Source: Clostridia bacterium
GTDB taxonomy: Bacteria; Bacillota; Clostridia; Christensenellales; Aristaeellaceae
NCBI GenBank assembly: GCA_017936375.1
Contig: JAGBFR010000071.1
Coordinates: 1-46,071, forward strand
Length of the DNA stretch: 46,071 nucleotides
Direction: 5' to 3'
Position numbers and translations under genes: made by a program
Shown here: positions 450 to 46,071 of the stretch, in pieces
Layout: every line of letters begins with the position of its first letter
How positions within the stretch are numbered: position 1 is the stretch's first letter
The notes under the pieces: model-generated
Told to the model about the DNA's origin: nothing
What the model saw: the letters and a program-made list of their open reading frames with translations, nothing else
Databases searched by the model: none

Positions 450-1766
<1,317 letters not shown>

Positions 1767-1774
1767 CGATACAG

Positions 1775-1806
1775 CCCGCGGGGAGCAATCTCCGCGGGTT
1801 TTCTTT
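1775..1806 (+). terminator. Intrinsic terminator after clpX
   Basis: CCCGCGGGGA (1775-1784) pairs with TCTCCGCGGG (1789-1798) with one wobble; the loop is 4 nt and the T-rich tail runs from 1799. Confidence 0.85.
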
Positions 1807-1853
1807 CTGCTGTGCCCGTTGGCTGCTGGCTGCTTTTGGTCAGCGGGGCCGTG

Positions 1854-1882
1854 TTGCAAAACGGGGTGCATTCGGGTATAAT
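1854..1882 (+). promoter_or_regulatory. SigA-type promoter of lon
   Basis: TTGCAA (1854-1859), a 17-bp spacer and a perfect TATAAT (1877-1882). The start of lon is 56 bp downstream. Because clpX ends in a terminator, lon has its own transcription start. No clear CIRCE or CtsR heptad repeat was seen. Confidence 0.8.
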
Positions 1883-1891
1883 GAAAAGCGT

Positions 1892-1917
1892 CGGCCCGGA
1901 CGCAGAAAATCGGGCCG
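1892..1917 (+). repeat. Leader hairpin of lon mRNA
   Basis: CGGCCCG (1892-1898) pairs with CGGGCCG (1911-1917) around a 12-nt A-rich loop. It begins about 10 nt after the -10 box and ends 4 nt before the AAAGGAGG ribosome site at 1921. Possible 5' stabiliser or translational control element (inference). Confidence 0.5.
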
Positions 1918-1937
1918 GGTAAAGGAGGAATCAACCA

Positions 1938-4349
1938 TTGGCCAAGCCTAAGAAGAAGCGCACGCAGCCGGTCAGCCTGCCGATGCTGCCGCTGCGGGGA
2001 CTGATGGTCTTCCCGTATATGGTGCTGCATTTTGACGTGGGCCGCAAGAAGTCCGTCGCCGCGCTGGAGCAGGCGATGCTCGGCGACCAGCGGATCTTCC
2101 TCGTCGCCCAGCGCGACATGGAGATCGACGATCCGGACGTCGATGACATTTACCACGTGGGCACCATTGCGGTGATCAAGCAGGTGCTCAAGCTCCCGGG
2201 CGACAACATCCGCGTCCTCGTGGAGGGCAAGAACCGCGCGATCCTGCGCGCTGTGACGCAGGAGGAGCCGTACTTCATCGGCGCGCTCGATGAGATCATC
2301 CCGCAGGGGACGGTCGTCTCCATCGAGACGGACGCGCTGCTGCGCACGGCGCATACCTGCTTTGAGGAATACTGCAAGATGAGCGGCCGCGTGTCGATGG
2401 AGACGATGCAGTCGGTCATGGAGATCGAGGACCCGGGTCAGCTGTCCGACGTGATCGCGGCGAACGTGCTCACCAAGGTGGAGGACCGCCAGGAGGTGCT
2501 CGAGGAGTTTGACGATGTGACGAGGCTGGAGAATGTCTGCGCGATCCTTGTGCGCGAGACGGAGCTGGCTGGCGTTGAAAAGAAGGTTCAGGCGCGCGTC
2601 CGCCGTCAGATCGAGCAGAACCAGAAGGATTACTACCTGCGCGAGCAGATCAAGGCGATCCAGACGGAGCTGGGCGATAAGGACGCCACGGATGTGGAGG
2701 AGCTGCGCGAGCGGCTGGATAAGACGCCGATGAACGACGAGGCGAGGGAGAAGACCGAGCGCGAGCTTGAGCGCCTCTCCCGCATGGCCCCCGGCAGCCC
2801 GGAGATCGGCGTCAGCCGGACGTACATCGAGTGGATGCTCGACCTCCCGTGGGGCAAGAACACCCCGGACAACCTCGACCTCAAGCGCGCCCGCCGCGTG
2901 CTGGCGGAGGATCACTACGGCCTTGAAGAGGTCAAGGAGCGCGTGATCGAGTATCTGGCCGTCTGCCGGATCAAGAACAACATGCGCGGCCCTGTGCTCT
3001 GCTTTGTCGGCCCGCCGGGCGTGGGCAAGACGTCCATCGCCAAGTCGATCGCCCGCGCGCTGGGCAGGAAGTTCGTGCAGATGTCGCTGGGCGGCGTGCG
3101 CGACGAGGCGGAGATCCGCGGCCACAGGCGCACCTATATCGGCGCGATCCCGGGCCGGATCATCTCCTCCATCAAGCAGGCGGGGATGCTCAACCCGGTG
3201 TTCCTCTTTGACGAGATCGACAAGATGGCGTCCGACGTGCGCGGCGATCCGGCAAGTGCGATGCTCGAGGTGCTCGACAGCGCGCAGAACAACGCCTTCC
3301 GCGATCACTATCTGGAGTGCCCGTTCGACCTCTCCGGCGTGATGTTCATCACCACGGCGAACTCGGTCGATACCATCCCGCGCCCGCTGCTTGACCGCAT
3401 GGAGGTCATCGAGGTCAGCGGCTACACGGAGGAGGAGAAGCTCAACATCGCCAAGCGCCACCTGCTCCCGGGCCAGATCAAGGAACATGGCCTCGCGCCG
3501 AAGAGCGTGCGCATGACGGAAAAAGTGATGCGCAGCCTGATTCAGGGCTACACCCGCGAGGCGGGCGTGCGCCGGCTGGAGCGGACGATCGGCAAGGTCG
3601 TGCGCAAGAGCGCGGTCATGATGATCGATGAGGAACTGGAGACCGTGAGCGTGACGCAGGAGCGGCTGGAAAAGTTCCTCGGCGCGCCGCGCTATCATTA
3701 TGAAAAGGCCGGCAAGAAGCCGGAGGTCGGCGTGGTCAACGGCCTTGCGTATACCGTCGTGGGCGGCGATACGCTGCAGATTGAGACGACGATCATGCCG
3801 GGCACCGGCCAGCTGGAATTGACGGGCAGCCTCGGCGACGTCATGAAGGAGAGCGCCCGCGCGGCGAAGTCCTATGTCCGCGCGCATGCGCTGGAGCTGG
3901 GCGTCGCGCCGGACTTCTATAAGACGCAGGACATCCACATCCACGTGCCGGAGGGCGCCGTGCCCAAGGACGGCCCGAGCGCGGGCGTGACGATGACGAC
4001 GGCGCTGGTTTCCGCGCTGACGGGCATCGCCGTCAGGCAGAACGTGGCGATGACGGGCGAAATCACGCTGCGCGGCCGCGTGCTGCCCATCGGCGGGCTG
4101 AAGGAGAAGCTCCTCGCCGCGCACAGGGCGGGCATCGACACCGTGCTCATTCCCAAGGAGAATGTCAAGGACCTGGAGGAAGTGCCGCAGAACGTGCTGG
4201 AGGCCATCACCATCATCCCCGCCGCAGAGATCGGAACCGTGCTGCGCACGGCGCTGTGCGAGACGCCGGGGCCGAAGGCGCAGACTGCCGCACCCGCCAT
4301 GCAGCCCCTGACGCAGGGCGCTGCCAGCGGCGCAGGGCTGCAGGCCTGA
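1938..4349 (+). CDS. lon: ATP-dependent protease Lon
   Basis: Cytosolic AAA+ serine protease that degrades misfolded and regulatory proteins. The 803-residue LonA layout is complete: N-terminal substrate domain (about 10-200), coiled coil (200-290), AAA+ module with Walker A GPPGVGKT (358-365) and Walker [10 protein letters not shown] (421-429), then the protease domain. Catalytic Ser680 lies in PKDGPSAG and Lys723 in [14 protein letters not shown], matching the E. coli spacing. Translation starts at TTG 1938, placed well behind AAAGGAGG; no closer ATG fits the family N terminus. The last ~25 residues (alanine/proline-rich) extend past the domain. engB follows 25 bp later and is probably co-transcribed. 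Confidence 0.97.
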
Positions 4350-4374
4350 GCGCCATCAAGCAAAGGAGAAAACC

Positions 4375-4992
4375 ATGATTGTCAAACGCGCAGACTTTAT
4401 CACCTCGATGAAGGACTATGGCGAGTTCGCCACAAAGGGCTGTCCGGAGGTGGCCTTCGCGGGCAAGAGCAACGTGGGCAAGTCCTCGATGATCAACAAG
4501 ATCACCAACAGGACCAAGCTGGCGCGCACCAGCGCCACGCCGGGCAAGACGAGGCTCATCAACGTCTATCAGATCAACGAGGAGGTCAACTTCATCGATC
4601 TGCCGGGCTATGGCTTTGCCAAGGTCAGCAAGACGGAGAAGATGTCCTGGGGCAAGATGATGCAGGATTACTTCGCGACGACGGAGGACCTGTGCCATGT
4701 GTTCCATCTGGTCGACATCCGCCATGAGCCGACGCAGGAAGACAAGGAGATGAACCTCTTCCTGCGCCAGTCCGGCATCCCGTTCACGGTCATCGCGACC
4801 AAGGCGGACAAGATCAGCCGCGGCGCGAGGCTCAAGCATCTCGCGCCGATCTGCCGCGCGCTGTTCGTGCAGCCGTGGCAGGTGATCCCCTTCTCTGCGG
4901 AGGATGGGACGGGCCGCGAGGAGATCCTCGCCAAGATCGAGGAAACCTGCTATACCGTCGAGGAGCAGGAGGACGAGGCGCCGCAGGCGTGA
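4375..4992 (+). CDS. engB: Ribosome biogenesis GTP-binding protein EngB/YsxC
   Basis: TrmE-Era-like GTPase needed for 50S subunit assembly. The 205 residues carry G1 GKSNVGKS (30-37), G2/switch I ATPGKTR, G3 DLPGYGF (from 75) and G4 TKAD (142-145). ATG 4375 follows AAAGGAG at normal spacing. Linkage to lon/clpX is a common Firmicutes arrangement. A symmetrical terminator lies after the stop. The acidic tail (EEQEDEAPQA) is short and unremarkable. Confidence 0.96.
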   Translation: MIVKRADFITSMKDYGEFATKGCPEVAFAGKSNVGKSSMINKITNRTKLARTSATPGKTRLINVYQINEEVNFIDLPGYGFAKVSKTEKMSWGKMMQDYFATTEDLCHVFHLVDIRHEPTQEDKEMNLFLRQSGIPFTVIATKADKISRGARLKHLAPICRALFVQPWQVIPFSAEDGTGREEILAKIEETCYTVEEQEDEAPQA

Positions 4993-41041: not shown

Positions 41042-41761
41042 ATGAGAAAAGGCGATGCGCGCCGGGGCGAGCTGCTGGCCACAGCGGAGCGCCTGTTTTA
41101 CACCAAGGGATACGAGAAGACGTCCGTGCAGGACATCCTCAACGAGATGAATTTCTCCAAGGGCGGCTTCTATCATCATTTTGACAGCAAGCTCTCCGTG
41201 CTGGAGGCGATCTGCCAGCAGCGCGCGCAGGAGAGCTGCGAGCGCGCCGCGCAGGCCGTGGCGGGCGGGGAGCACAGCGCGGTGGAGCGGCTCAACATGC
41301 TGCTGCACAGCACGCCGCTCTGGGGCGGCGACAATCAGAATTTCGTGTCGCTCCTCATCCGCGTCGCCTACCGAGAGGATGGCGCGCTGATGCGCGAGAA
41401 GATGAAGACCAGCCAGCTGGAGGGCATGAAGCCCGTGCTGGAGGGGATCCTCGAGCAGGGATTGGCGAGCGGAGAATTCTATGTGACCGACGCGGAGGCG
41501 CAGGCGGAGATGCTCATGCGCCTGTACATGCAGTTCACGGACGAGATTGCCTTCCTCCTGGCGCAGGAGGAGAGCGAGGAGCGGCTGACGGACGCCATGC
41601 TGCGCAAGCTGGCGGTCTACCGCGCGGCGATCGAGCGGACGCTGATCGCGCCGTTTGGCTCGATTGTGCTCTTTGAGGCGAAGGAGCTGCAGCTGCTGGG
41701 GCAGGCCATCCTGCGCGAGCGCGTGCGCGCCCGGGCGGATGCGATGCTTGGGAATGGATAA
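41042..41761 (+). CDS. TetR-family transcriptional regulator
   Basis: 239 residues. N-terminal TetR helix-turn-helix: RGELLATAERLFYTKGYEKTSVQDILNEMNFSKGGFYHHFDSK. The rest is the variable ligand-binding part, so the inducer is unknown. ATG 41042 follows AGGAAGG at long spacing. It lies 63 bp after the VanW gene and ends in a strong terminator, so it could control that gene or act elsewhere. Confidence 0.9.
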   Translation: MRKGDARRGELLATAERLFYTKGYEKTSVQDILNEMNFSKGGFYHHFDSKLSVLEAICQQRAQESCERAAQAVAGGEHSAVERLNMLLHSTPLWGGDNQNFVSLLIRVAYREDGALMREKMKTSQLEGMKPVLEGILEQGLASGEFYVTDAEAQAEMLMRLYMQFTDEIAFLLAQEESEERLTDAMLRKLAVYRAAIERTLIAPFGSIVLFEAKELQLLGQAILRERVRARADAMLGNG

Positions 41762-41774
41762 ATAAACACAGATT

Positions 41775-41812
41775 GGCAGAAAAGCAATTTTCTGCCTTCT
41801 TTTGCTTTTGTT
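41775..41812 (+). terminator. Terminator after the TetR gene
   Basis: GGCAGAAAA (41775-41783), loop GCAA, TTTTCTGCC (41788-41796), then a T-rich tail. Confidence 0.9.
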
Positions 41813-41886: not shown

Positions 41887-42606
41887 ATGATGATCCGAAG
41901 CATTATCTGCGATGATGAGTTATCGGCTTGCGGTGTTTTGAAAGAACATATTGAACGGTATGAGGAAGAGAAGGGTGTGCGCTTTGACGTGTACGTCTGC
42001 CATGACAGCGCAGAGCTTCTCGCGCGACTTGATGAACAGGGGGCCGATCTGCTCTTCCTGGATATCGAAATGCCGGGCATGAACGGCATGGAGGCGGCGC
42101 GCAGAATCCGCAGAACAAACAAGGATGTTTCTATCATTTTTGTTACCAATCTGATTCAGTATGCTCTTCAGGGATATGAGGTGCAGGCGTATCGATTCCT
42201 GCAGAAGCCTGTGCTCTATCCGCAGTTTTCTGCAGCGCTGGAGGGGATTGTGGCCCGGCTGTCCCGTATGGCGGCGGACGAGATTGTGGTCAAAAACAAG
42301 GAGGGGTATGTCCGTATCCGGGCGCACAGGATAGATTACATCGAAACCTGGCAGGGGCATGTGAGGATTCATACGAAGGATGGGGAGATTGAGTGCTGCC
42401 AGAGCATGGCCTCGCTTGAAAAGGCATTGAGCGGCAGCGCATTCTTCCGATGCCATACCGCCTATCTGATCAACATGGAGCAGGTGGAGCGGCTGATGGC
42501 GAATGAACTGACGCTTTCCTGCGGCGAGTGTATTCCCGTCAGCAAACACAGACGCAAACAGCTGGCTCGGGCGATGACGGAATACTGGGGAGGCATGCTG
42601 CTGTGA
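41887..42606 (+). CDS. LytTR-family response regulator (AgrA/VirR-like)
   Basis: 239 residues. Receiver domain starts MIRSIICDDELSACGVL, with phospho-Asp in LLFLDIEMPGMNGMEAARRIR and Lys in RFLQKPV. The C-terminal LytTR DNA-binding domain covers about 140-235 (IVVKNKEGYVRIRAHRIDYIETWQGHVRIHT...FFRCHTAYLINMEQVERL). ATG 41887 lies 6 nt after GAGGTG; a second ATG is adjacent. The stop overlaps the sensor start (GTGA). LytTR proteins bind paired 9-bp direct repeats about 21 bp apart; such a repeat lies in front of the reductase gene downstream. Confidence 0.93.
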   Translation: MMIRSIICDDELSACGVLKEHIERYEEEKGVRFDVYVCHDSAELLARLDEQGADLLFLDIEMPGMNGMEAARRIRRTNKDVSIIFVTNLIQYALQGYEVQAYRFLQKPVLYPQFSAALEGIVARLSRMAADEIVVKNKEGYVRIRAHRIDYIETWQGHVRIHTKDGEIECCQSMASLEKALSGSAFFRCHTAYLINMEQVERLMANELTLSCGECIPVSKHRRKQLARAMTEYWGGMLL

Positions 42607-43940
42607 ATGTGGAAGGGTTTGGCCTGTGGACGTTTGCAAGGGCGGCCTTGCGTGCGGTTCTGCTGATCGCGTTCGTTTGGCCGATGATCGATAGAAAGCG
42701 TCGCTTTGCACGCATCCTTGCGGGAGCGGCGACGGTGATTCTGTTTGCGATGGTGCGCGCTCATCCATTCTTCAGCGGGAGTACGGCGATGGCGTTTTTC
42801 CTGCGTCAGGTGATGCAGACTGTTGGGGTGTGCCTTGCGCTTCTGCTGATGTCCACGGGGCAGAAGCTGTTCAGTGTGTATGTGGCATGCGTATTCTCTT
42901 TTGCAACAGGGATCTGGAAGAGTATCGTGAGCCCGTATTACTGGCAGGAGGAGGCCTATTCGCTGTTCAGCCTGATCCACACTGGCGTGCTTTCGGCGCT
43001 TGAGAGCACATGTGGCGAGTTTCTGCTGCATGCCGGGATTCTGCTGCTGATTCGCTCGTTCTTCCGAATGCAGCCGGATCGGCATATGCAGGGCAGTCAG
43101 GCGGCGTTGGTGCTGTTTCCGATTCTGATGAACTGGTCGGTTTTCGGCATATTTGATAGTCTGATCTATAATCAGGCGCTGCTGCCGGTGCAGACGCGCA
43201 GTGCGGTGATTGTCGTTCTTATTCTTCTGCAGGCTTCCGCGCTCTTTATAATTGCGATGGCGGAGCAGTACTTCTTTACTGTCCGGCGTCGTGAAGAGGC
43301 GGAGGTCGAAAGACACCTGCTTTCGGATGCCTGTGTGCGCATGGAGGCGCTGCGCCAGAGTGATGAGGCGCTTCGTGTTTTGCGCCACGATATGCAGAAT
43401 CACCTGTCGACGCTCATGACCATGAATCAGACGGGCGAGGATGCAGCGGGCTATATTGATGCGCTGATTGCGGAGATTGCGGGCAGTGCCCAGACGTTTG
43501 ACAGTGGGAATTCCACGGTTGACTGCGTATTGGCTCAGAAAAACGACGTCTGCCGCAGGGCGGGAATCCGGCTGGAGGCTTATGTGCGTTTTAAAGACAT
43601 GGAGTTTTTGAAGCCGACGGAAGCCTGCGTGCTGTTTGCCAATTGCCTGGATAACTGCATCGAGGCTGTCGCGTCTCTGCCGGAAGAGGAGCGGCGTATT
43701 GTCGTCAGCTGCGCCGGGATTGGCGGATGTATGGTCGCCAAATTCAGCAATCCCTGTAAAGGGGTGAGGGAATGTGAGAATGGTTTGCCCAAGACAACAA
43801 AAGCGGACGGAAGCGGCCATGGATATGGCCTTAAGAGCGTTGAGATGATCCTGCGCAGACACGCAGGCACGCTGCTTGTCGGGCAGAGGGATGGCGTATT
43901 CACGGTAACATGGATGATTCCGATGAAAGAGATGGACTGA
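42603..43940 (+). CDS. GHKL sensor histidine kinase (AgrC-like)
   Basis: 445 residues. The N-terminal half has about six hydrophobic helices, the usual AgrC-type membrane sensor. The kinase core has the phospho-His in LRVLRHDMQNHLSTL, N box NCLDNCIEAV and G box GHGYGLKSVEMILRRHAG; it lacks a separate HisKA domain as in the GHKL group. Start GTG 42603 overlaps the regulator's stop and has GGGAGG upstream. The signal is unknown; no agrD-like peptide gene was seen nearby. Confidence 0.9.
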   Translation: MNVEGFGLWTFARAALRAVLLIAFVWPMIDRKRRFARILAGAATVILFAMVRAHPFFSGSTAMAFFLRQVMQTVGVCLALLLMSTGQKLFSVYVACVFSFATGIWKSIVSPYYWQEEAYSLFSLIHTGVLSALESTCGEFLLHAGILLLIRSFFRMQPDRHMQGSQAALVLFPILMNWSVFGIFDSLIYNQALLPVQTRSAVIVVLILLQASALFIIAMAEQYFFTVRRREEAEVERHLLSDACVRMEALRQSDEALRVLRHDMQNHLSTLMTMNQTGEDAAGYIDALIAEIAGSAQTFDSGNSTVDCVLAQKNDVCRRAGIRLEAYVRFKDMEFLKPTEACVLFANCLDNCIEAVASLPEEERRIVVSCAGIGGCMVAKFSNPCKGVRECENGLPKTTKADGSGHGYGLKSVEMILRRHAGTLLVGQRDGVFTVTWMIPMKEMD

Positions 43941-43978
43941 TGCAGAAAAACTGGGTGGAAAACGCTTCTGCAGGGATG

Positions 43979-44012
43979 AAAATGTCCAGTTTTGGCCGCA
44001 AAATGACCAGTT
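43979..44012 (+). promoter_or_regulatory. Direct repeat upstream of the reductase gene, candidate LytTR site
   Basis: AAAATGTCCAGTT (43979-43991) and AAAATGACCAGTT (44000-44012) are identical at 12 of 13 positions and start 21 bp apart, two helical turns on the same face. The second ends 12 bp before the expected -35 position. Spacing and place fit a LytTR activator site; the match to the AgrA consensus is only partial. Confidence 0.55.
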
Positions 44013-44046
44013 ATCAAATAGCGTAGGATATTACAGCATCTTCCTG

Positions 44047-44052
44047 TATAAT
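44047..44052 (+). promoter_or_regulatory. -10 element of the reductase gene
   Basis: Perfect TATAAT with no recognisable -35 17 bp upstream (TAGGAT), which fits an activator-dependent promoter. Confidence 0.6.
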
Positions 44053-44098
44053 CAAATCGGCAGTTATGCCCGAAAATATTGATATGGAGGAATGTTGT

Positions 44099-45850
44099 AT
44101 GAAGAAGTTTGCTGCTCTGCTTCTGGCTCTCGTGCTGTGCATGAGCGCCCTTGGCGCGATGGCTGACACCTATGCCGGCGAAGCAACCGGCTTTGGCGGC
44201 GCAATCAAGCTCGAAGCTGAAGTGACGGACGGCACGATCGTGGCCATCAATGTGCTTGAGGCCAACGAGACCGAGACCATTGGCGGCATGGCGCTGAACC
44301 TGCTGCCGGAGATGGTTGTCTCCGCTCAGTCCACCAACATCGACGGCGTCTCTGGCGCGACCGTGACCAGCGGTGCGTTCTTTGAGGCTGTCAATGCGGC
44401 GTTGACCGCTGCTGGCCTTGATCCGGCGGCGCTCGTTCCGGTTGAGAAGTCCGGCGAGGCTGTCGAGACCGAAGAACTGAACTGTGATGTGGTTGTCGTT
44501 GGCGCGGGCGGCGCCGGTATGGCCGCTGCGCTCAAGATGAACGATCAGGGATACAACGTGATCGTGCTGGAGAAGCAGGCCTTTGTCGGCGGCGCTACGG
44601 CGATGTCCGGCGGCAGCGCGCTGGCTTCCGGCTCCAAGTATCAGGCTCTGTCCGGCGTTGAAGACAGCGCTGAGGCGTGCTTCGCTTACCTGATGGAGTA
44701 CGGCGATTATGAGAATGACGGTACCCCGGCGTGGATGCTCGCCAGCAAGTCCGGCTATGCGGTCGACTGGCTCAGCGACAGCATGGGCATTCCGTTTGCG
44801 GAGAAGATGACCGGCCGCGCGCGCAGCGCGGAGGGCGGCGGCTCCGGCCTGGCGCAGAATCTCTACAACAAGACGCAGGAGAAGAACATCCCGGTGATGC
44901 TCAACACCCGCGCGTATAAGCTGACCGATACCGAAGGCCGCGTGGACGGCGTGCTCGCCCGCGATGTGCTGACCGGCAAGGAATATGTTGTCAATGCCAA
45001 GGCTGTGCTGCTGGCGACCGGCGGCTATTGCTACGCGCCCGAGCTCCTGGGCGAGGAATTCCAGAGCCCGGCGTATGTTCTCTCCGGCTCCAAGGCCAAC
45101 ACCGCTGACGGCCTGTACATGGCGCAGGAATACGGCGCTGTGCTGCAGAACATGGATCATGTGACCATGTCCGGTGCGGGCATCAACCGCGGCGATAAGG
45201 GTCAGCATACCCGCCGCGCCACGTCCACCGTGTACTCCAAGTATGGCGCGATCCTCGTCAATCAGGACGGCCAGCGTATCTGCAACGAGGCTGACCCGAG
45301 CAAGGATATGGTTCCGGCGATGCGCAAGCAGAGGAACTCCTACATCCTGATGGATCAGGCGACGTTCGATGTTTATGCCGAGGCCTGTGTTTCCGGCGGC
45401 TACTTCAAGCAGGAGCAGCTGGATCAGTGGCTGGCTGAGAACGGCACCGGCGTTACCGTCTTCGCGCATGGCGAGACCCTTGAAGAGGTCGCTGCTGCGG
45501 TGAATGTTGACGCCGCCGGCCTGGCTGCGACGGTTGAGCGCTACAACGGCTTTGTCGCTGCGGGCGAGGATACCGACTTTGGTCATCCGGTCAGCCTGCC
45601 GATCGGCGAGGGTCCGTACTATCTGGTTGAGCAGGTCCTGCGATTCAGCACCACCATGGGCGGCCTGACCATCGACAATAACCTTCAGGTTGTTGACAGC
45701 ATGAACAAGCCGATCGACGGTCTGTTCGCTGCGGGCGAAGTGATTGGCGGCGTCTACGGCGCGCACTTCCCGTCTTCCTGCGGCGTGGGCTGGGCGATGA
45801 CCAGCGGCGTGCTTGCCGGCGAATTCATCAGCGCGTATCTCGCTGAGTAA
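44099..45850 (+). CDS. Exported flavoprotein reductase with FMN-binding and FAD domains (fumarate-reductase-like)
   Basis: 583 residues. Signal peptide (KKFAALLLALVLCMSALGAMA, cleavage near 22) without a convincing lipobox. An FMN-binding domain follows (about 24-105) with DGVSGAT (Thr88), the site where ApbE-type transferases attach FMN. The FAD domain (about 128-583) has GAGGAG (135-140) and Glu158. In fumarate and urocanate reductases the catalytic T-R-D after VNxxGxRFxNE carries Arg; here the place reads SKD. The end motif GGVHGxNRLGGN reads GGVYGAHFPSSCG, so the substrate Arg seems lost too. It is probably an extracytoplasmic reductase for an organic electron acceptor other than fumarate (inference). 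ATG 44099 behind GGAGG. Confidence 0.9.
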   Translation: MKKFAALLLALVLCMSALGAMADTYAGEATGFGGAIKLEAEVTDGTIVAINVLEANETETIGGMALNLLPEMVVSAQSTNIDGVSGATVTSGAFFEAVNAALTAAGLDPAALVPVEKSGEAVETEELNCDVVVVGAGGAGMAAALKMNDQGYNVIVLEKQAFVGGATAMSGGSALASGSKYQALSGVEDSAEACFAYLMEYGDYENDGTPAWMLASKSGYAVDWLSDSMGIPFAEKMTGRARSAEGGGSGLAQNLYNKTQEKNIPVMLNTRAYKLTDTEGRVDGVLARDVLTGKEYVVNAKAVLLATGGYCYAPELLGEEFQSPAYVLSGSKANTADGLYMAQEYGAVLQNMDHVTMSGAGINRGDKGQHTRRATSTVYSKYGAILVNQDGQRICNEADPSKDMVPAMRKQRNSYILMDQATFDVYAEACVSGGYFKQEQLDQWLAENGTGVTVFAHGETLEEVAAAVNVDAAGLAATVERYNGFVAAGEDTDFGHPVSLPIGEGPYYLVEQVLRFSTTMGGLTIDNNLQVVDSMNKPIDGLFAAGEVIGGVYGAHFPSSCGVGWAMTSGVLAGEFISAYLAE

Positions 45851-45907: not shown

Positions 45908-45937
45908 AAGCGGAGCAGCTTAGCTGCTCCGCTTTTT
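45908..45937 (+). terminator. Terminator after the reductase gene
   Basis: AAGCGGAGCAGC (45908-45919), loop TTA, GCTGCTCCGCTT (45923-45934), then TTTG. Perfect 12-bp stem. Confidence 0.92.
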
Positions 45938-45947
45938 GTATGAAGAA

Positions 45948-46071
45948 AACCACTCGCTAGGCGAGTGGTTCAAAAGAAGCCTTCTGGCGATGATGTAGAT
46001 GGAAAAACTCCTTTTGTTGTATAATCAAAATGCGGTCTGGCAACTGCAAAGGAAACAACAAAAGGAGGACA
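45948..46071 (+). mobile_element. Probable left end of an IS200/IS605-type element (cut by the window edge)
   Basis: AACCACTCGC (45948-45957), loop TAG, GCGAGTGGTT (45961-45970): a perfect 10-bp hairpin with a 3-nt loop, the type of subterminal hairpin recognised by TnpA. About 90 bp further is AAAGGAGG (46061-46068) three bases from the window end, so a gene, probably the transposase, starts just outside. TATAAT at 46020-46025 may be its promoter. No coding part is visible, so the call rests on hairpin form and layout. Confidence 0.4.

Follow-up and report, generated by a model that had tools for sequence, protein, structure and literature searches.

In the genome of a Clostridia bacterium of the family Aristaeellaceae (GenBank assembly GCA_017936375.1; 2.85 Mb, 80.9% complete), we analyzed contig JAGBFR010000071.1 (bases 1–46071 of contig C24 in our numbering; this whole stretch of 46,071 nucleotides is called the window here) and focused on a module at its right end, consisting of a LytTR response regulator, a GHKL sensor histidine kinase, and an exported flavin reductase (Table 1). 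The regulator matches the Response_reg profile at 6.9e-19 (68.5 bits; curated cut-off 30.2) and the LytTR profile at 2.9e-19 (69.5 bits; cut-off 22.6), and its DNA-binding domain carries FFRCHTA, which resembles the FhRhHRS-type LytTR motif described in passages of PMC4227749 and differs from it at the last two positions. An earlier note, made on this DNA from the letters alone, had described a 4-bp overlap between the regulator and sensor genes (42603–42606) followed, after 158 bp (43941–44098), by an exported flavin mononucleotide (FMN)/flavin adenine dinucleotide (FAD) reductase, and gene coordinates and domain matches bear this out. The reductase has an N-terminal signal peptide (judged by eye), an FMN_bind domain with an ApbE-type site (DGVSGATVTS, of the DxxSGATxS/T form), and an FAD_binding_2 domain, the combination that characterizes FMN_bind extracytosolic flavin reductases. 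Related enzymes are presented in parts of PMC8238504 as extracytosolic and respiratory, many of them with unknown substrates. The source genome has 34 FMN_bind domain matches and one ApbE match in its 2.85 Mb, a large expansion of exported flavin enzymes.

The intergenic region upstream of the reductase contains a predicted pair of LytTR half-sites that form a 13-bp direct repeat, AAAATG(T/A)CCAGTT, with 12 of 13 positions identical and a 21-bp period, followed by a −10 element. The earlier note had described the repeat in these terms, and that description stands; its title, which spoke of a 21-bp repeat, does not. Its claim of a perfect −10 without a −35 held as well, with TATAAT at the −10 and the best −35 at 16–18 bp spacing matching TTGACA at three of six positions, and a promoter scan gave no sigma-70-like site in 43941–44098. 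A pair of ~9-bp direct repeats, 10–13 bp apart and upstream of the target's −35 position, is thus present, and passages of PMC11347149 describe LytTR sites as 9-bp repeats 10–13 bp apart. The pair was the only match in the window at up to three mismatches (0 in 100 shuffles), and its extended form is unique across the source assembly. A composite score for the two half-sites, the 34–36 bp spacing, and the −10 reached 22 at the reductase promoter, with 14 the next best value in the window on either strand.

Table 1. Features of the LytTR–reductase module and its surroundings (window coordinates)
Feature	Position	Strand	Details
LytTR response regulator (receiver + LytTR DNA-binding domain)	41887..42606	+	domain profile matches
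GHKL sensor histidine kinase	42603..43940	+	HATPase_c_5/GHKL 6.2e-16; phospho-acceptor region LRHDMQNHL
Distal LytTR half-site (predicted), AAAATGTCCAGTT	43979..43991	+	core CCAGTT 43986–43991
Proximal LytTR half-site (predicted), AAAATGACCAGTT	44000..44012	+	core CCAGTT 44007–44012
−10 element TATAAT	44047..44052	+	34 bp after proximal CCAGTT
Exported reductase (FMN_bind + FAD_binding_2)	44099..45850	+	ATG 44099; FAD_binding_2 1.5e-55, FMN_bind 3.8e-15
TetR regulator gene preceding the module	41042–41761		
Terminator-like hairpin between TetR gene and regulator	41775..41796	+	9 pairs, tail TTCTTTTGCT
Terminator-like hairpin 3' of reductase	45908..45934		12 pairs

We built a regulator profile from six sequences and ran it on 300 family genomes. 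Among the matches listed, eight regulators scored above 330 bits, after which scores dropped to 242.6. Seven of these eight clade regulators adjoin a reductase with both FMN_bind and FAD_binding_2; at the eighth locus (L110; G023:C164), the contig ends ~20 codons into an open reading frame (ORF) with a signal peptide. The best same-genus homologues of the kinase, bar one at a contig edge, also adjoin a related reductase, and a further kinase–reductase pair was found whose regulator lies off the contig (L112; G002:C146). Five of the next 21 regulators among the matches listed adjoin an exported FAD_binding_2 protein (L114, L246, L248, L250, and L262), with FMN_bind detected in two of the five (L248 and L250), and none of a further 40 regulators stands beside a reductase; because L250 and several other outgroup loci lie on short contigs, the adjacency counts there are lower bounds. 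Within the source genome, two of four LytTR genes adjoin an FMN_bind protein, the window's and that of a second LytTR/GHKL pair (L119; G000:C57, ~1456–4466) divergent from another FMN_bind protein. On a regulator tree of 74 rows, in which several reductase-linked rows are long branches and the window's six-row clade has support of 94/78, linkage to a reductase can be placed with 4 label changes, whereas shuffled labels take 12.2 on average (0 of 500 shuffles as low).

The promoter layout accompanies this lineage. An exact CCAGTT-N15-CCAGTT pair occurs at seven of the eight clade loci and faces the reductase side whether the layout is co-directional or divergent; the remaining locus (L113; G007:C194) has a degenerate pair, CCAGAT/CCAACC. 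All seven exact-pair loci have a −10-like hexamer 34–35 bp past the second half-site, which in L111 is just GATAAA. Searching 308 family genomes for CCAGTT-N15-CCAGTT-N33-36-TATNNT returned 11 matches and the reversed control two. Clade modules account for six of the 11, among them one from another genus (G262:C57) that also came up independently in the regulator search. We scored the layout at 15 loci, a set that takes in L112 (kinase and reductase, regulator off contig) and L110 (where the first codons point to a reductase), and found that it beats 1000 Markov shuffles (p < 0.02) at 12 of them, including the second LytTR–reductase pair of the source genome, where CCGTTC/CCATTC lie 21 bp apart and 35 bp before TATGAT. 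As a control, nine usable upstream regions of the source genome's other FMN_bind proteins scored 6–11 (from a set of 30 FMN_bind loci that took in the window's own, the rest being open at the 5' end, duplicate, too short, or without a scorable −10). Period 21 gave the highest mean best match among periods 12–40 (8.86 of 12 against 6.36–7.50; 14 loci), the pair centre lies at −59.5 to −61.5 in 13 loci, and TGn precedes the −10 in 11 of these 13, being absent from the window and from one other locus. That the repeat is chance or unrelated sequence is scarcely credible: CCAGTT-N15-CCAGTT does arise by chance about once per 2–3 Mb (33 control matches in 29 genomes), but its place, spacing, and orientation are alike in seven of eight clade loci, and no shuffle reaches the observed score in 10 of the 15 scored loci, the window's included. 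Conservation of the repeat and its neighbourhood in relatives, on which the earlier note had staked its reading, is thus found for the regulator's lineage and not for a fixed three-gene order around the reductase; at the sequence level, what is conserved is the regulator lineage together with its promoter design.

We considered whether the module is a local switch or part of a wider regulon. The exact pair occurs 38 times in 29 genus genomes against 33 times in the reversed control, and six of the 38 are modules; with the pair elsewhere in the genus at chance level, nothing in these 29 genomes points to a larger regulon, and the circuit looks local. We rejected a wider regulon after placing 35 of the 38 matches (all except G002:C233, G023:C331, and G020:C117): six lie at clade regulators and 29 have no regulator–reductase pair at the site, nine of the 29 having been viewed with 1.5-kb flanks alone. 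Individual matches fall in degenerate CCCCAGT repeats (L185 and L186), more than 2 kb from a regulator–kinase pair without a reductase (L192), inside an ORF with a weak regulator match (L194), or inside a long ORF with a reductase ~1 kb off (L200).

Taken as a whole, we regard it as likely, with considerable confidence, that the module is a self-contained, locally acting two-component switch that activates the adjacent exported flavin reductase. To judge from a site and a neighbourhood that are both conserved in the regulator's lineage, it is very probable that the repeat is the regulator's binding site and that the reductase is activated by it. By analogy with known LytTR biology, the membrane GHKL kinase would answer a cue and phosphorylate the regulator; a regulator dimer would then occupy the two CCAGTT half-sites in head-to-tail fashion, at a distance of two helical turns and with a centre near −60, and bring RNA polymerase to a promoter whose −10 is good and whose −35 is poor, switching on the adjacent reductase, which is probably covalently flavinylated. 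Repression in place of activation is improbable. Passages of PMC11347149 describe CoxC as a LytTR repressor with repeats overlapping the −35, whereas here 34–36 bp separate the end of the proximal repeat from the −10, which puts the repeat upstream of the −35 position, the location of LytTR activators; in nine of 13 loci, moreover, the −35 matches poorly, at three or fewer of six positions.

Several observations weigh against such a switch or narrow its support. The pair-bearing loci share ancestry and are not fully independent; the pattern came to light in the clade and was recognized in outgroup loci afterwards, and therefore only G262 is fully independent. The half-sites of L113, L119, and L248 are degenerate and were recognized once the pattern was known, the architecture is missing from L112 and L250, and in L111 the pair is accompanied by a weak −10. 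Five of the 11 pair-plus-−10 matches lie outside the clade, one of them (G002:C234) without such genes nearby. Among 73 regulator relatives in named genomes, where the best regulator homologues reach at most 38% identity and are mostly from uncultured Clostridia, reductase neighbours amounted to two weak matches of 29–30 bits. Seen from the enzyme, the best genus homologues of the window reductase are 59% (G024) and then 36–39% identical, and none of the 10 closest has a LytTR neighbour; a conserved three-gene order around the reductase was rejected accordingly. Downstream of the 59% homologue (L315; G024:C35, 5651–8193) lie a HisKA kinase that weakly matches 7TMR-DISM and a convergent regulator of OmpR type, which may mean that the same enzyme is served there by a different kind of regulator, and TetR-like ORFs lie near eight of the 10 closest homologues (L316–L321, L323, and L324). 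To judge from these sequence comparisons, the reductase is not a fixed partner of the LytTR module.

The TetR-like ORFs beside the homologues raise the alternative that the TetR protein encoded upstream of the module controls the reductase and the LytTR/GHKL pair is a bystander, which we consider highly improbable. The window's TetR gene belongs to the genus core (28 of 29 genomes), and in the 11 further loci that we read, with 1.5-kb flanks, no LytTR module is seen nearby, so that the module looks like an accessory insertion. The hairpin at 41775..41796 sets the module apart from the TetR gene, a repeat search found no TetR-like palindrome at the reductase promoter, similarity to other TetR proteins is confined to short stretches (28–38% over 37–91 residues), and three TetR proteins checked near reductase homologues carry a different C-terminal family, TetR_C_13_2. 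We rejected the TetR gene as part of the module on three of these grounds: it is a core gene, no LytTR module is seen near it in those 11 loci, and a terminator stands between them.

The reductases found in the modules are varied. They are 21–31% identical to the window's, and unlinked paralogues in the source genome reach up to 35%. One has 1226 residues and is a tandem of two FMN_bind/FAD_binding_2 units (L108, 2095–5772), and another has an added nitroreductase domain (L112, 3525–5762). Active-site motifs differ too: L111 retains the fumarate-type HHTMGG and GGIHAGNR, and the window reductase has FSTTMGG and GGVYGAHF. With module reductases differing in sequence, motifs, and domains, the regulator and its promoter design appear to outlive, or move between, reductases. 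The nearest solved structures to the window reductase are flavocytochrome c3 fumarate reductases and UrdA, and it shares with flavocytochrome c and UrdA relatives FMN_bind and FAD_binding_2 domains, a signal peptide, and an ApbE-type site. Aligned with solved fumarate reductases, however, it lacks His/Arg residues at four fumarate-site regions, and with them the catalytic and substrate-binding set that defines flavocytochrome c type fumarate reductases; its score of 248 bits lies below the TIGR01813 cut-off of 285. Because these residues are missing, fumarate is unlikely as its substrate, as far as the alignment tells.

In alignment A4, the six clade regulators with exact CCAGTT pairs have Gly-His at one LytTR position, which is missing from the five aligned regulators in whose pairs one or both half-sites are altered (L113, L114, L246, L262, and L119). 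This co-variation fits cognate recognition but tracks phylogeny, and we take it as weak evidence from sequence. We also scanned the regulator–kinase promoter for autoregulation in 14 loci; the window scored 8, at background, and the others 7–15, some of them with a mirror image of the reductase-side site. In their divergent intergenic regions, L114 (G017:C15) and L246 (G007:C191) have, besides the pair that faces the reductase, another 21-bp pair that runs the opposite way (GACCAAATGGCA type), towards the regulator gene, so that autoregulation is possible there.

Some further features were seen at other LytTR loci. Six related LytTR/GHKL pairs without a neighbouring reductase (L251, L258, L279, L289, L290, and L300) show, immediately past the kinase gene, a 21-bp pair that lies 34–36 bp ahead of a −10 (scores 16–18). 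At L110 (8066–8615), a ~480-base leader with three near-identical tandem units (by eye) separates the paired site from the downstream ORF, and the regulator gene of this locus carries an in-frame stop.

We next turn to what the kinase might sense. The kinase has ~7 N-terminal helices and no extracytoplasmic domain, according to hydropathy and a low-confidence model (from alignment A3, 17 rows; mean predicted local distance difference test score 66.7, membrane part mostly 40–70) that we used for the helix count alone, and a domain profile search recognized no sensor family in it. Among relatives, its membrane part is 19–23% identical to the window protein, against 30–36% for the GHKL part, as expected if ligands differ. 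Most likely, the kinase would respond to the compound that the reductase itself reduces, or to an electron acceptor of similar chemistry. We tentatively suggest, without leaning on it, that these LytTR/GHKL systems form a lineage of interchangeable acceptor sensors, each standing beside a different exported flavin reductase, sensing the substrate of that enzyme through a fast-diverging membrane domain, and switching it on from the same standard promoter design (half-site, 21 bp, half-site, ~35 bp, and usually an extended −10). The layout looks like a reusable local switch, perhaps for the use of extracellular electron acceptors.

It is also possible, if doubtful, that the cue is unrelated to the enzyme (a neighbour peptide, envelope stress, or host compounds) and that the reductase is an output, for instance in detoxification. 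The close GHKL/LytTR systems AgrC/AgrA and ComD/ComE sense peptides, and the absence of reductases beside all 40 further related regulators would make reductase control one use of a broader family. An unrelated cue fits less well with a lineage kept beside reductases of varied sequence, which suggests a signal tied to the enzyme, and with a membrane part that diverges more than the GHKL part, as if ligands differed; nor did we find an AgrB gene, with 0 matches in the source assembly (80.9% complete, so that absence is not certain). With no AgrB found, the earlier note's wording "Agr-type" goes too far, and on present evidence the module is not an Agr system. Inspection of the locus for a peptide precursor listed small overlapping ORFs.

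Beyond the module, the last 140 bases of the window (45932–46071) are a repeat that recurs with 100% identity at four further sites in the genome, over 117 bases at one of them. Of the five copies, four end where the retrieved stretch ends and the fifth ends 92 bases later, as at contig edges, and each copy starts in a T-run just past a different terminator hairpin (CTTTTTGTATG...), as if it were an insertion element targeting terminators.

The module resembles several known systems in part. Of the solved structures related to the regulator profile, ComE (4cbv) scores best, and the AgrC/AgrA and ComD/ComE pairs share with the module their domains, direct repeats two helical turns apart near −60, and a suboptimal promoter, but their targets are virulence, competence, and bacteriocin genes, whereas the module's target is an exported flavoprotein and apparently one local promoter. 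Passages of PMC4227749 place the promoter-proximal AgrA repeats at a centre of about −60, at promoters with suboptimal spacing. RcoM and CoxC, described in part of PMC11347149 as LytTR regulators of CO oxidation, likewise control an energy-metabolism enzyme through spaced direct repeats, but they are one-component proteins (a haem or MHYT sensor fused to LytTR) acting on three repeats, whereas the module has two components and two repeats, and its target is a flavin reductase. With these precedents for LytTR control of energy metabolism, the earlier note's view that respiratory use would be unusual has to be softened. LytTR regulatory systems (LRS; HdrRM/BrsRM) also have LytTR repeats ~12 bp apart upstream of the −35, with a strong tendency to sit ~10 bp before it in the portions of PMC6193735 that describe them, a position that the module's pair matches; in line with the same portions, these systems combine an inhibitory membrane protein with a regulator lacking a kinase partner, whereas the module has a receiver domain and a GHKL kinase and is not an LRS.

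The mechanism is a standard LytTR activator design, and what is new is a lineage kept beside exported flavin reductases. Among the papers listed by full-text searches, none describes FMN_bind reductases under LytTR control, judged by titles and abstract openings and with subscription journals mostly outside coverage. A local, one-promoter regulator with a readable binding site offers a direct route to ligand discovery for orphan FMN_bind reductases; if the acceptor-sensor reading is true, the sensors would report which compound each orphan reductase uses. Together, these results widen the known uses of AgrA/ComE-type regulators to extracytoplasmic redox enzymes.

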